A stretch of 40,674 nucleotides of DNA from Gomphosphaeria aponina SAG 52.96 = DSM 107014 (GTDB lineage Bacteria > Cyanobacteriota > Cyanobacteriia > Cyanobacteriales > Gomphosphaeriaceae). The DNA lies in NCBI GenBank assembly GCA_016903655.1, contig JADQBC010000014.1, positions 1 through 40,674 on the forward strand. Direction: 5' to 3'. Below the pieces are notes generated by a model that was given only the letters and a program-made list of their open reading frames with translations, was not told the origin of the DNA and made no database searches. Within the stretch, counting starts at the first letter, position 1, and each line of letters starts with the position of its first letter. This document shows positions 3,671 through 23,819 of this stretch, in pieces. A program made the position numbers and the translations under genes.

Positions 3671-3765
3671 ATCAGTTGTAGGGTGCGTTAGGCGTAAGCA
3701 GTAACGCACCGCAATTATCAGTTGTAGAGTACCTTAGGCATAAGCAGTAACGCACCGCAGTAATT
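3671..3765 (+). repeat. Tandem hairpin repeat between sufB and sufC
   Basis: Two adjacent direct copies (3671-3716 and about 3717-3765) of a 46-49-bp unit starting ATCAGTTGTAG. The first has perfect 9-bp arms, GGTGCGTTA (3682-3690) and TAACGCACC (3702-3710), around an 11-base loop. In the second copy the left arm is mutated (AGTACCTTA), which weakens the hairpin. The unit begins directly after the sufB stop codon. GGTGCGTTA hairpins are a dispersed repeat type in cyanobacteria. Confidence 0.75.
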
Positions 3766-13945: not shown

Positions 13946-14067
13946 TGGTTGATAGTTGATAGTTGATGGTTGATGGTTGGAGGTATAGTAGTTGCGCAAA
14001 GCGCGCCCTCTCGTTAATGAACATGGTTGATGGTTGATGGTTGATAGTTGATGGTTGATGGTTGATC
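13946..14067. repeat. Heptamer arrays of GGTTGAT type
   Basis: Tandem 7-bp units GTTGATG/GTTGATA occupy 13946-13980 and 14023-14067. They flank about 40 bp of unique sequence that contains GTTGCGCAAAGCGCGCC. This is the short tandemly repeated type common in filamentous cyanobacteria. Confidence 0.9.
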
Positions 14068-14081
14068 ACCAACACTCAGAT

Positions 14082-14153
14082 GCTCCCCACTCCCTTCTCC
14101 CCACTCCCCACTCCCTTCTCCCCACTCCCCACTCCCCACTCCCCACTCCGCAA
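14082..14153. repeat. Heptamer array of CACTCCC type
   Basis: About ten tandem 7-bp units, mostly CACTCCC with some CTTCTCC variants, directly follow the GGTTGAT array and precede the SNF2 gene. Together the arrays fill nearly all of 13945-14242, with one HIP1 octamer near 14194. Confidence 0.9.
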
Positions 14154-14242
14154 CTCCGCTTCTCCCTAGTCTTCTATCAGCCTCGAAAGAAAGCGATCGC
14201 TTTGTCTTGAAATTTTTTTTATTTAAATATTAGGGGTCAGAT

Positions 14243-19297: not shown

Positions 19298-19423
19298 GGG
19301 CGTTGCTGAATTGAGTTATGAATTATATTTTTACAAAAACTACTAACCAAACTCAAACCCTCTGGCCACTCCCTACTCCCCACTCCCTACTTTAAGGGTT
19401 CATGCTTCAATTCAGCAACGCCC
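19298..19423. mobile_element. MITE with GGGCGTTGCTGAATTGA ends
   Basis: A 126-bp non-coding element with perfect 17-bp terminal inverted repeats at 19298-19314 and 19407-19423. TAGGGG stands directly outside both ends (19292-19297 and 19424-19429), as a target duplication would. The centre contains CACTCCC/CTACTCC heptamers. Similar GTTGCTGAAT ends are found on cyanobacterial insertion sequences, so an IS transposase elsewhere probably moves it. Confidence 0.75.
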
Positions 19424-19460: not shown

Positions 19461-20324
19461 TTAATACATAATTTGTTCAATCATGCGGGCAGCCTGACTA
19501 CCATAGCCACCGCCAAAAAGATTGAAGTGATTGAGGATGTGGTAGAGATTATAAAGAGTTTTGCGCTGTTGATAACCCTCGGCTAAAGACCACACCTCAT
19601 TGTAACCGTGATAGAAAGCAGCGGGAAAACCACCAAACAATTCAGTCATCGCCAAGTCAACCTCGCGATCGCCATAATAAGTGGCAGGATCTAAAATAAC
19701 TGGTTCTCCTGCAACTGTTACCGCTGCATTTCCCGACCACAAATCCCCATGGACTAAAGAAGGTTGAGGATTTATCTGGGCTAAAATTTGCCGTACCGTC
19801 CCCACAACTCTCTCAGTTGCAGGAAAACTACCACCTCTACCCTTAGCTAATTGCAACTGATAGCCAATTCTGTATTCAGCAAAAAAATCCGCCCAGTTTG
19901 ATGTCCAGGGATTGAGCTGGGGGGTAGAACCGATCGTATTATTTCGCTCCCAACCAAATTGAGAAGCACCTCCAGCCTTGTGCATAGCGGCTAATTTACG
20001 CCCCATTTCTTCCCAAGATTGCGTATTACCTCGCCCAAACTCCATCCATTCTAAAACCAGATAACTATGTTTGTCGGTCATTCCCCAACATAAAGGCCCG
20101 GGAACAAGAATAGTCTGAGTAGCAAGCATTTGTTTTAAACCCAATGCTTCTGCTGCAAACATCTCAACTTGAGAGGGATGATTAATTTTAACAAAATAAG
20201 TTTTACCATTTCCAGTTAGTTGATAACCTTGATTAATGCAACCGCCACTCACAGAGCGGTGGTTTTCAACTTGAAATTTTGTTTCGGTTGTTTTAGAGAT
20301 TTCTGCTGCAATTTCTGTCCACAT
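19461..20324 (-). CDS. Fructosamine kinase family protein
   Basis: A 287-residue aminoglycoside-phosphotransferase-fold kinase of the fructosamine/ribulosamine kinase family. Visible features are the N-terminal lobe YFVKINHPSQVEMFAAEALG with the ATP-binding lysine, the catalytic loop LVHGDLWSGNAAV and the metal-binding segment VILDPATYYGDREVDLAMTE. Bacterial members phosphorylate sugar-amine adducts on proteins or amino acids so that the adduct falls off (deglycation repair). The substrate here cannot be told. The gene stands alone between a MITE and a heptamer array; its start at 20324 gives a full-length N-terminus. Confidence 0.93.
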   Translation of the reverse strand: MWTEIAAEISKTTETKFQVENHRSVSGGCINQGYQLTGNGKTYFVKINHPSQVEMFAAEALGLKQMLATQTILVPGPLCWGMTDKHSYLVLEWMEFGRGNTQSWEEMGRKLAAMHKAGGASQFGWERNNTIGSTPQLNPWTSNWADFFAEYRIGYQLQLAKGRGGSFPATERVVGTVRQILAQINPQPSLVHGDLWSGNAAVTVAGEPVILDPATYYGDREVDLAMTELFGGFPAAFYHGYNEVWSLAEGYQQRKTLYNLYHILNHFNLFGGGYGSQAARMIEQIMY

Positions 20325-20330
20325 CGCATT

Positions 20331-20428
20331 GTTGATGGTTGATGGTTGATGGTTGATAGTTGATGGTTGATGGTTGATGGTTGATGGTTGATAGTTGATA
20401 GTTGATGGTTGATAGTTGATGGTTGATA
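20331..20428. repeat. Heptamer array of GTTGATG type
   Basis: Fourteen 7-bp units (GTTGATG or GTTGATA) stand in tandem just upstream of the fructosamine kinase gene. An oppositely oriented array lies at 20602-20630. Confidence 0.95.
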
Positions 20429-20429
20429 A

Positions 20430-20534
20430 GCAAAATTATTTACACAATTTCTTACGGGGCGGGTTTATCCTTGAGCTTTGTGAGCAATTGATCTTTAAAT
20501 CAAAACCCGCCCTTACCCAGGTAATTAATTTTGT
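20430..20534. mobile_element. MITE-like element, copy B
   Basis: About 105 bp, homologous to the reverse complement of copy A at 987-1094. Matching parts are GCAAAATTATTTACACAATT at the left, GGGGCGGGTTT, AAAACCCGCCCT, and GTAATTAATTTTGT at the right end. The roughly 30-bp centre differs. The arms could form a long hairpin. It starts directly after the heptamer array, so it may have inserted into or beside the repeats. Confidence 0.65.
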
Positions 20535-20601
20535 GCGACCACTTATATGCTACCGTGTAAAAATCGGGTTTTCTGGAGATGTCTAATCATATTCTTCATT
20601 T

Positions 20602-20630
20602 CAACCATCAACCATCAACCATCAACCATT
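20602..20630. repeat. Inverted heptamer array, CAACCAT type
   Basis: Four units of CAACCAT in tandem, the reverse complement of the array at 20331-20428. About 170 bp containing MITE copy B lies between them. The rest of the 20325-20660 gap holds no gene. Confidence 0.9.
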
Positions 20631-20660
20631 AACTAATCATGAGTATCATAGTTATAGAGA

Positions 20661-21965
20661 CTAGGCGGGGCGCACCACAACGATACCATAAGCAGTGGGA
20701 GAAAGATAATTTTGCGCCGCAGTTTGCAAGTGGTGGGGGGAGAGAGCTTTAATGTAATCAGGATAATTTAAACCTGACTCAATATCTCCCAATAAAGACT
20801 GATAATAACCATAAAGTCCCGCGCGATCGCTTGCTCTTTCATTCCCAAAAATAAAACGATTTGCCACTTGGGTTTTAAGACGTACAACTTCAGAATTATT
20901 TACGCCTGCTGTTTGAATAGTAGCAATGTGAGAAGCGATCGCCTTTTCCACCTCCGCTACATTTTCTGTGGGTAATTTAGCGTATACATAAAACAACCCC
21001 TGACACCCAAAAGTCATATTACTCACACTAATTTGAGATACTAGCTCCCTGTCTTCGCGCAAATCACGAAACAGACGAGACATTTTTCCCCGTCCCAAAA
21101 TGCCTGCCAACACATCCAGAGCATAAGTTTCGGACAAGTTCTTTCTGCCAGGAACGCGCCACATCATCACCAGCCGCGCTTGTTGCAAACTCTCATCCAC
21201 ATACTCCCGACGCACAATTTCCTGATGAGGAAGTTCAGGTTCTAATTCTGCACTTGGCAAAAAACAATTTTCTTCTTTAACAAAAGGAAGTTGGGGGAGG
21301 TTAAGAACCGACTCAGCAACAATTGCAATCAACTCATCCACTGGCAAATTCCCCACCACCGCCACAGTCATAGAAGTAGGGTTATACCACTGGGAATGAA
21401 ATTCCCGCATTTGCCTAGCAGTTAACCCAGTAATTACCCCAGTTGTCCCCAAAACCTGACGACGATAGGGCAATTTGGCAAAACCCATCTCCATCGCCCA
21501 AGAAAAAGTGCGACGCCCAGGATTATCTTCTGCACGGTTAATTTCTTCTAAAACAACCAAACGCTCTCGCTCAAAAGCATCTTCAGCAATGTTAGGATTT
21601 AATACCACATCCAATTGTAAAGGCGCTAAGGCTGCAAAATCTTTTGGGGCAGTCGTAATATAATACTGAGTATATTCCTGGCTAGTTGCGGCATTAGTAA
21701 CAGCACCTCTTTCCTCAATAATACGCTCAAACTCCCCAGGAGAGAGTTTAGGAGTTCCTTTAAACACCATGTGTTCTAAAAAATGAGCCATCCCATTAAT
21801 CTCATCAGACTCAACTACCGAACCTACATTGAGCCACACATTCAAATTAACCACTTCAGTGGGCATTTGTTCAGCCACTATTGTCAGACCATTCCCCAGT
21901 TGGTGAATTGTTGGGGCATTGATTTTCTGAGATTTTACCACAGTTGATGTCATTTGCTTAGGCAT
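20661..21965 (-). CDS. M16 family zinc metallopeptidase
   Basis: A 434-residue M16B peptidase, related to mitochondrial processing peptidase and bacterial PqqL/YmxG. The inverted zinc motif HFLEH is at residues 61-65 (His61, catalytic Glu64, His65), with the third ligand probably in the downstream EEINRAEDNPG region. The core reads HQLGNGLTIVAEQMP, NVWLNVGSVVESDEINGMAH, QYTQYYITT and later RVPGRKNLSETYALDVLAGI. The length suits a single M16 unit with active and inactive halves. Substrates are unknown. No signal peptide is seen, so it is probably cytoplasmic. An alternative start four codons in (MTSTVV) is possible. Confidence 0.93.
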   Translation of the reverse strand: MPKQMTSTVVKSQKINAPTIHQLGNGLTIVAEQMPTEVVNLNVWLNVGSVVESDEINGMAHFLEHMVFKGTPKLSPGEFERIIEERGAVTNAATSQEYTQYYITTAPKDFAALAPLQLDVVLNPNIAEDAFERERLVVLEEINRAEDNPGRRTFSWAMEMGFAKLPYRRQVLGTTGVITGLTARQMREFHSQWYNPTSMTVAVVGNLPVDELIAIVAESVLNLPQLPFVKEENCFLPSAELEPELPHQEIVRREYVDESLQQARLVMMWRVPGRKNLSETYALDVLAGILGRGKMSRLFRDLREDRELVSQISVSNMTFGCQGLFYVYAKLPTENVAEVEKAIASHIATIQTAGVNNSEVVRLKTQVANRFIFGNERASDRAGLYGYYQSLLGDIESGLNYPDYIKALSPHHLQTAAQNYLSPTAYGIVVVRPA

Positions 21966-22055
21966 TGCTTATTTTTTGCTTATTAGATGATCAATGTGTC
22001 ATAAAAGAGACTAAAGGTTTAACACATGATCAAAGGTAACTCAAGTCTAATATAG

Positions 22056-22391
22056 CAGAGTAGAGAGTAGGGAGTAGGGAGTAGGGAGTAGGGAGTAGGG
22101 AGTAGGGAGTAGGGAGTAGGGAGTAGGGAGTAGGGAGTAGGGAGTATGAAGTAGGGAGTAGGGAGTAGGGAGTAGGGAGTAGGGAGTATGAAGTAGGGAG
22201 TAGGGAGTAGGGAGTAGGGAGTAGGGAGTATGAAGTAGGGAGTAGGGAGTAGGGAGTAGGGAGTATGAAGTAGGGAGTAGGGAGTAGGGAGTAGGGAGTA
22301 GGGAGTATGAAGTAGGGAGTAGGGAGTAGGGAGTAGGGAGTAGGGAGTAGGGAGTAGGGAGTAGGGAGTAGGGAGTAGGGAGTAGGGAGTA
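22056..22391. repeat. 48-unit GGGAGTA heptamer satellite
   Basis: 336 bp of unbroken 7-bp periodicity: 41 GGGAGTA units, 5 TGAAGTA variants and two degenerate units at the start. The variants begin at 22147, 22189, 22231, 22266 and 22308, that is at spacings of 42, 42, 35 and 42 bp. Blocks of six (once five) heptamers have therefore been copied as higher-order units. It lies between an M16 peptidase gene and a membrane-protein gene and is not itself coding. The rest of 21966-22451 shows no gene. Confidence 0.97.
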
Positions 22392-22451
22392 GCCAGAGCA
22401 ACGCCTCTAATCGTAGTCCTCATTTAATCCTGAGTATCAAAAGTGACAATT

Positions 22452-23354
22452 ATGAAGAATTATTTACGCTGGCTAATTTTGGGCGGAACCCTATTTTTCT
22501 TGCTGGCGGCGTTTAAAGACCATTGGCGAGAAGTTGTTGCGGTGCGCATTGAACCACAGGGATGGCTGATGCTATTTTTTGCCCTGCTTTCTACTTTTGC
22601 AGCCCATATTTGGTCAGCTTGGGTGTGGACTTGGATCCTCAAAGCTTTTCACCAACCTTTCGGTGGCGCCACCGCAATTAAAATTTATCTCATTACCAAT
22701 CTTGCTAAGTATTTACCTGGTAATATTTGGCATTTTTATGGTCGGATCTCAGCAGTTACTAAGGCTGGGGGTTCTCTTGAGGTTGCTAGTCTTAGTGTTT
22801 TATTAGAACCTTTATTAATGGCCGCTGCTGCTTTATTAATCGCTTTGACTAGCAGTAGTTTTGGTTGGCTGACAACAAGTCAAGTTGGGTTACAATTTCT
22901 AGTATTAGCAATTGTTCTCCTGGGAATAAATCCTCATATTCTTAACTGGGGTATTCGTCTTTTAAGTCGTCTTAAAGGCCAGAAAACTGCAACTATGGAA
23001 ATTAAACAATATCCTCTTTTGCCTTTGTTAGGAGAATTGTGTTTTTTGCTCTTACGAGGTACTGGTTTCTTATTCGCTGTAGCTGCATTAATGCCAGTCA
23101 ATTATTATGATATTCCCCAACTTTTAAGTGTGTTTAGTTTTGCTTGGTTATTGGGTTTAATTGTTCCTGGAGCCCCAGGAGGTTTGGGGGTGTTTGAAGC
23201 AACGGCGATCGCTTCTCTTGACAGTGAACTTTTTCCTCCTGCTCTTGTTCTTACTGTTGTTGCTTTTTTTCGGGTAGTTAGTTTGCTTGCAGAAGCTTCT
23301 ACTGCGGGACTTGCTTATTTAATGAAAGAACAAAATTTTATTCCCAAAAATTAA
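22452..23354 (+). CDS. Flippase-like integral membrane protein (LPG synthase TM family)
   Basis: About 300 residues with eight or so membrane segments, in the family of the lysylphosphatidylglycerol synthase transmembrane domain (formerly UPF0104). Family-like segments are FALLSTFAAHIWSAWVWTWI, LITNLAKYLPGNIWHFYGRI (the NLAKYLPGNIW segment is characteristic) and GLIVPGAPGGLGVFEATAIA. Members act in lipid or polyprenol-linked intermediate translocation; the substrate here is unknown. I take ATG 22452; a GTG at 22443 is an alternative, and neither has a good Shine-Dalgarno sequence. The 3' end overlaps the next convergent gene by 4 bp. Confidence 0.85.
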   Translation: MKNYLRWLILGGTLFFLLAAFKDHWREVVAVRIEPQGWLMLFFALLSTFAAHIWSAWVWTWILKAFHQPFGGATAIKIYLITNLAKYLPGNIWHFYGRISAVTKAGGSLEVASLSVLLEPLLMAAAALLIALTSSSFGWLTTSQVGLQFLVLAIVLLGINPHILNWGIRLLSRLKGQKTATMEIKQYPLLPLLGELCFLLLRGTGFLFAVAALMPVNYYDIPQLLSVFSFAWLLGLIVPGAPGGLGVFEATAIASLDSELFPPALVLTVVAFFRVVSLLAEASTAGLAYLMKEQNFIPKN

Positions 23355-23683
23355 TTCTTCTCTATTTCTTCGAGCCTTTTTTCTAATTCTACCACCCTTT
23401 CCTTGAGTTCAATTACTAAAGTAGCGAGCCGTTCAAACATGGGGTCACTTGCGCCAATTTGGGTATTATTTCCAGGTGGGGGAACATAATTCTGACCGTT
23501 TTGTTGAGCAATTAACTGACGCAAACTACGGGTTTCTGTTTCTAATTGAGTTACTCTTGTTCTCAGCCCATTTATTTCTGAAGCCAGAGTACTGTTTGAC
23601 TGCGCAGCAACTGAAGTAATCTGATTTATCTCTATCCCAATTATCAACAATAACATTAAGCCAAACAATAATTTATTGTTCAT
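23351..23683 (-). CDS. Small exported coiled-coil protein
   Basis: A 110-residue protein with an N-terminal hydrophobic signal or anchor (LLFGLMLLLIIGIEINQITS, then VAAQS). Two heptad-rich helices follow, about residues 33-62 (LASEINGLRTRVTQLETETR) and about 80-110 (MFERLATLVIELKERVVELE). A Pro/Gly/Asn-rich linker (VPPPGNNTQIG) separates them. It is probably a periplasmic or membrane-tethered oligomer. No family is recognised. It is convergent with the flippase-like gene. Confidence 0.7.
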   Translation of the reverse strand: MNNKLLFGLMLLLIIGIEINQITSVAAQSNSTLASEINGLRTRVTQLETETRSLRQLIAQQNGQNYVPPPGNNTQIGASDPMFERLATLVIELKERVVELEKRLEEIEKN

Positions 23684-23695
23684 ATAAAATCAACC

Positions 23696-23722
23696 TTGGG
23701 CTCAAGCCCCAATTTTTTTTTT
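23696..23722 (+). terminator. Intrinsic terminator reading on the plus strand
   Basis: TTGGG-C-TCAA-G-C-CCCAA (23696-23712) folds as a GC-rich hairpin with one bulge and is followed by ten T residues (23713-23722). It points along the plus strand just beyond the start codon of the minus-strand coiled-coil gene. It would stop transcripts that run from the flippase-like gene through that gene in antisense. Confidence 0.7.
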
Positions 23723-23819
23723 GAAGACTTTTTTCAAGGTATGTTACTATTTTTGTGAAGTTTATTTATTCCTTGCTGATCTGCTATAATTTCTATTTTA
23801 TAAAATACTGAACCCAACC

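Follow-up and report, generated by a model that had tools for sequence, protein, structure and literature searches.

Cyanobacterial genomes carry short tandemly repeated repetitive (STRR) heptamers, whose classical units are CCCCARTC-like or CAACAGT. The use of STRR heptamers for fingerprinting goes back to Rasmussen and Svenning (1998), as cited in PMC5088731, and STRR fingerprinting has been applied to Nostoc (PMC5088731). In Nostoc PCC 7120, arrays of the heptamer GGGGA(T/C)T reach up to 26 units and are mainly intergenic, the gaps between divergent genes being the least favoured intergenic setting (9%), and heptamers related to GGGAGTA form G-quadruplexes in vitro (PMC4692102). In the tRNA-Leu intron of Nostoc, length variation is driven by the number of heptanucleotide repeats, which differs between genotypes (PMC3488679).

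The array described here lies in a stretch of 40,674 nucleotides of Gomphosphaeria aponina SAG 52.96 = DSM 107014 (hereafter the window), which belongs to a draft assembly of 3.67 Mb in 146 contigs, 76% complete. The window is recognizable as cyanobacterial because its 40.7 kb contain 23 HIP1 octamers (GCGATCGC) and because the GGGAGTA repeat occurs in many named cyanobacteria. The array has the following parts:

22056..22391, + strand: heptamer array of 48 units (41 GGGAGTA, 5 TGAAGTA, 2 degenerate)
22056..22069, + strand: degenerate edge units CAGAGTA and GAGAGTA (units 1-2), from the unit listing
22147..22314, + strand: zone with a 42-bp higher-order register, from the TGAAGTA spacing

The heptamers are arranged head to tail, all in phase, and span about 335-336 bp according to the unit listing and to TRF, which reports a single array with a period of 7, 47.9 copies and a score of 593; a near-perfect array of 335 bp with such a score lies far beyond chance. 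The two degenerate units leave a core of 46 units, and the complete order reads vv-o11-X-o5-X-o5-X-o4-X-o5-X-o11, where o stands for GGGAGTA, X for TGAAGTA and v for a degenerate unit. The TGAAGTA units start at positions 22147, 22189, 22231, 22266 and 22308, giving spacings of 42, 42, 35 and 42 bp. An earlier note on this DNA, which had reported 48 in-phase heptamers with five such variants, was exact in its coordinates, counts and spacings. It had also called the strand strongly purine-rich, and purines do make up 84% of it; the array is nevertheless not a pure purine tract, because T is present in every unit.

Of the 477 bp that separate two divergent genes, the array takes up 336, in the following surroundings:

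20661..21965, - strand: M16 family peptidase gene, divergent, with its start codon 90 bp from the left edge of the array
21977..22057, + strand: imperfect hairpin-forming sequence touching the left edge of the array, from a DNA fold
22019..22423, - strand: mechanical ORF of 134 aa, repeating YSLLPTP, judged to be no gene
22443..23354, + strand: membrane-protein gene with weak similarity to the lysylphosphatidylglycerol synthase TM region, starting 51 bp beyond the right edge of the array

The product of the right-hand gene, for which an alternative ATG lies at 22452, matches the lysylphosphatidylglycerol synthase TM region with 24.9 bits, under the Pfam cut-off of 33.4. The predicted fold of the hairpin-forming sequence has an energy of -11.8 kcal/mol (z -2.8, with 2 of 200 shuffles equally good); this left flank occurs once in the genome and was not called by the inverted-repeat finder, because its arms are interrupted. 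Neither a sigma-70-like promoter nor an intrinsic terminator was found in 21900-22500. Two further identities were considered and rejected: a known structured RNA, as no Rfam family matched in 20200-23800, and a coding repeat, as stop codons interrupt each of the three + strand frames and the ORF on the minus strand (22019-22423) has no Pfam match.

The distance between variant units is a fixed multiple of the monomer length, as expected of a higher-order repeat, except that one of the four intervals is one unit short. If five units are placed at random among the 46 of the core, the probability that all spacings agree within one unit is 0.00245, and that of obtaining the spacings {5,6,6,6}, whatever their order, is 6e-5, both values coming from post hoc tests; P is 0.017-0.019 in a weaker, less tailored shuffle test that scores the best same-variant lag count. 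The longest exact self-match in the array, 116 bp, is found at offsets of 42 and 119 bp. More specifically, the five TGAAGTA units carry two substitutions relative to GGGAGTA, identical in all of them, and the pairing of TGAAGTA with an adjoining GGGAGTA is otherwise nearly absent: our search of this assembly found no second place, and among 149 genomes of the order one other genome has it, as a single occurrence. The five units are thus copies of one changed unit, and the shared double substitution is a stronger argument than the spacing P values for copying over independent mutation. The higher-order repeat claimed in the earlier note therefore corresponds to a true register (spacing P ~0.002, double substitution common to the five variants), and its proposal that six-heptamer blocks were copied, one of them losing a heptamer, is sound in view of the regular spacing and of the five copies of the same variant.

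Heptamer arrays of this type abound in the genome. In a 441-kb sample consisting of the window and 20 sample stretches, period-7 rows represent 62 of the 123 TRF calls (about half), and 57 of these 62 arrays lie outside long ORFs, versus 32 of 61 for the other periods, in a sample where long ORFs cover 80% of the bases. The leading unit families in these 441 kb are AACCATC/AACTATC-like and ACTCCCT/AAGGGAG-like, the window array belonging to the second. Runs of at least three GGGAGTA units are present on at least 10 further contigs of the assembly, in a search in which the backwards-read GGGAGTA control pattern gave zero matches. Other GGGAGTA arrays with TGAAGTA variants had been suggested as something to look for: the arrays do exist, whereas TGAAGTA stands beside GGGAGTA nowhere else in the assembly. 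Six more heptamer arrays are found in the window itself (13948-13979, 14023-14066, 14083-14166, 19368-19391, 20331-20427 and 20601-20633), all between long ORFs, and a 46-bp unit in two copies that are 90% alike lies between genes at 3671-3759. Within the order, (GGGAGTA)4 occurs in 13 of 149 genomes, two of which, besides this one, have hundreds of matches; among the matches listed for (GGGAGTA)5, most are from cyanobacteria (Moorena, Okeania, Nostoc, Calothrix, Hassallia and others). Many dispersed arrays, mostly intergenic, in a cyanobacterial host are what characterizes STRR repeats, and all of this is found here. What had previously been missed is that the array belongs to this abundant and already known class of cyanobacterial heptamers, whose arrays often show higher-order periods.

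With its 48 units, the array is the longest among the ~160 GGGAGTA arrays examined and within the 441-kb sample, the runner-up having 31 units, in a comparison where 22 of 125 runs are possibly truncated by a nearby locus or contig end, and where lengths taken from a draft assembly can be wrong. Its length alone is therefore somewhat unusual; the maximum in a second genome from the same order is 42.6 units. As for secondary periods, 16 TRF rows with a period of 14, 21 or 28 bp overlap the 62 heptamer arrays of this genome, and 47 such rows overlap the 159 arrays of the second genome, some of these rows being weak or plain multiples of the monomer. Examples are the window array at 14083-14166 (21 bp), L214:10344-10441 (14 bp, 7 copies) and L220:13215-13345 (28 bp, 4.6 copies). 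In L013, a further GGGAGTA array of this genome, units of the variant GGGAGTG stand six units apart, without excess over the shuffles of that array. A compound array at L014:1103-1290 contains a longer higher-order block, TTTAGTA(GGGAGTA)2-3...GGGATTT, of ~33-41 bp or more. Higher-order structure is not special to the array at 22056-22391: given the other registers of 14, 21 and 28 bp, 42 bp is the longest of several register lengths, and what is unusual is the length of the array together with the tidiness of its 42-bp register. A preference for six units through helical turns (42 = 4 x 10.5 bp) was considered and rejected, since the other arrays show 2-, 3- and 4-unit periods and therefore no visible preference for six.

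We consider it very likely that we are dealing with an STRR-type intergenic array that grew by slippage or unequal recombination, in which a variant block was duplicated, and which probably has no dedicated function. Neutral growth through strand slippage is the likeliest account, slippage, event order and neutrality all being inferred. A plausible history would be as follows: (i) a short GGGAGTA run would have been lengthened by replication slippage or unequal recombination; (ii) two substitutions in one central unit would have produced TGAAGTA; (iii) a block of about six units containing TGAAGTA would have been copied in tandem some four times, larger blocks requiring fewer steps; (iv) one block would have dropped one heptamer, leaving the 35-bp spacing. 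The G-rich strand and the adjoining hairpin may stall the replication fork and thereby favour slippage. The homogeneity of the outer units had been taken to indicate two growth phases; a single phase of monomer growth combined with a few central 42-bp duplications fits the array equally well. Hypervariability between strains, also put forward in the earlier note, is a prediction. At most, changes in array length would modify the upstream region common to the two divergent genes.

Could the variant spacing or the array length be partly an assembly artefact? The assembly is a draft in 146 contigs, 76% complete, and the longest exact self-repeat of 116 bp is near the limit of short-read assembly. 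However, the lone 35-bp spacing breaks the symmetry of the array, so that k-mers longer than 116 bp would resolve it uniquely; the array and both neighbouring genes lie in one contig, with a left flank that is unique; and a genome with a 1.7-Mb contig has similar arrays and periods. We therefore regard such an artefact as unlikely.

The five TGAAGTA units split the array into six segments containing 11, 5, 5, 4, 5 and 11 G-tracts, each of which fits the pattern G3+N1-7 and contains at least the four consecutive G3 tracts used as a threshold by Rehm et al. The G-rich structures considered possible in the earlier note are thus predicted, on paper, for every segment. This raises the question of whether the array acts as a cis-regulatory length switch for the M16 peptidase and the LPG-synthase-like gene, through spacing or through a G-quadruplex in a 5' region. 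The share of the gap between the divergent starts that the array occupies (336 of 477 bp) would suit such a role, as would the G-rich strand being sense for the right-hand gene, the six G4-capable segments, each with at least four G-tracts, and the in vitro behaviour of related heptamers (PMC4692102). On the other hand, heptamer arrays are scattered genome-wide, a divergent-gene setting is found for 6 of the 50 placed heptamer arrays, and the interval 21900-22500 yielded no sigma-70-like promoter. A conserved regulatory array is also rejected at the order level: the loci of the right-hand gene in 29 relatives, inspected with ~1.5 kb of flank, show neither a neighbouring M16 gene nor an intervening array. 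Altogether, a length switch appears improbable.

The genome also contains a dispersed element of ~118 bp, present in 46 near-identical copies (e.g. L170, L171, L183, L019), 41 of which have an identical 37-bp piece. Its termini are AGAC...GTCT and most copies are flanked by matching 3-bp AT-rich triplets (AAT/AAT, ATT/ATT), ends and triplets which suggest that it is probably a MITE-like mobile element. It has an inner tract of GGGAGTA-type heptamers whose length varies among copies, with 17 units in the copy at L019:888-1006 versus few in most others, a naturally occurring instance of an array growing within a mobile element. This element may merit more attention than the array at 22056-22391. 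The array could in principle stem from a decayed copy whose inner tract expanded: the 46 element copies carry the same heptamer family, and the 7-mer AAGTCTA is common to the left flank of the array and to the left arm of the element. One common 7-mer is a weak link, though, the left flank has no second copy in the genome and the right flank does not contain the conserved TTTTACATGAAATAAATATAAAAATTGATT; since the flanks fail to match, we rejected the array as a part of the dispersed element, and descent from a decayed copy is very unlikely. Finally, the notion that the TGAAGTA units are selected spacers producing a row of discrete G-quadruplexes, a length-tunable divider of the two divergent promoters in which each TGAAGTA would interrupt one G-tract and leave blocks of 4-5 tracts, strikes us as barely credible.

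With neutral growth of an STRR-type array as the preferred reading, the locus leaves current knowledge of such repeats unchanged; it provides a legible record of block duplication in a long cyanobacterial heptamer repeat. Heptamers being the dominant tandem repeats of this genome, and often showing secondary periods, these arrays would be suited to measuring the block size of slippage in bacteria.

The comparison with eukaryotic satellites made in the earlier note holds insofar as variant units return at a multiple of the monomer in higher-order satellites too, but it was an over-reading without support in any functional sense: what we have here is a single intergenic bacterial array of 335 bp with five variants, and no centromere-like role is implied. 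The repeat of the Nostoc tRNA-Leu intron (PMC3488679) also has a 7-bp unit, and its copy number differs between strains; unlike the present array, it lies within a structured intron and forms a hairpin. The GGGNATC and GGGGA(T/C)T repeats of Xanthomonas and Nostoc (PMC4692102) are similar in having a G3 tract every 7 bp, up to tens of units, a mostly intergenic location and the capacity to form G-quadruplexes, whereas GGGAGTA does not match the consensus of Rehm et al. and the array sits between divergent genes, the setting least favoured in Nostoc. The cyanobacterial STRR heptamers share the 7-bp tandem unit, the many dispersed arrays per genome and the mainly intergenic location, and the present locus differs from them by its GGGAGTA unit and by its long array with a 42-bp register. 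Arrays of this type being frequent both in this genome and in certain other cyanobacteria, the one at 22056-22391 is a long but ordinary member of the known class of STRR heptamers.
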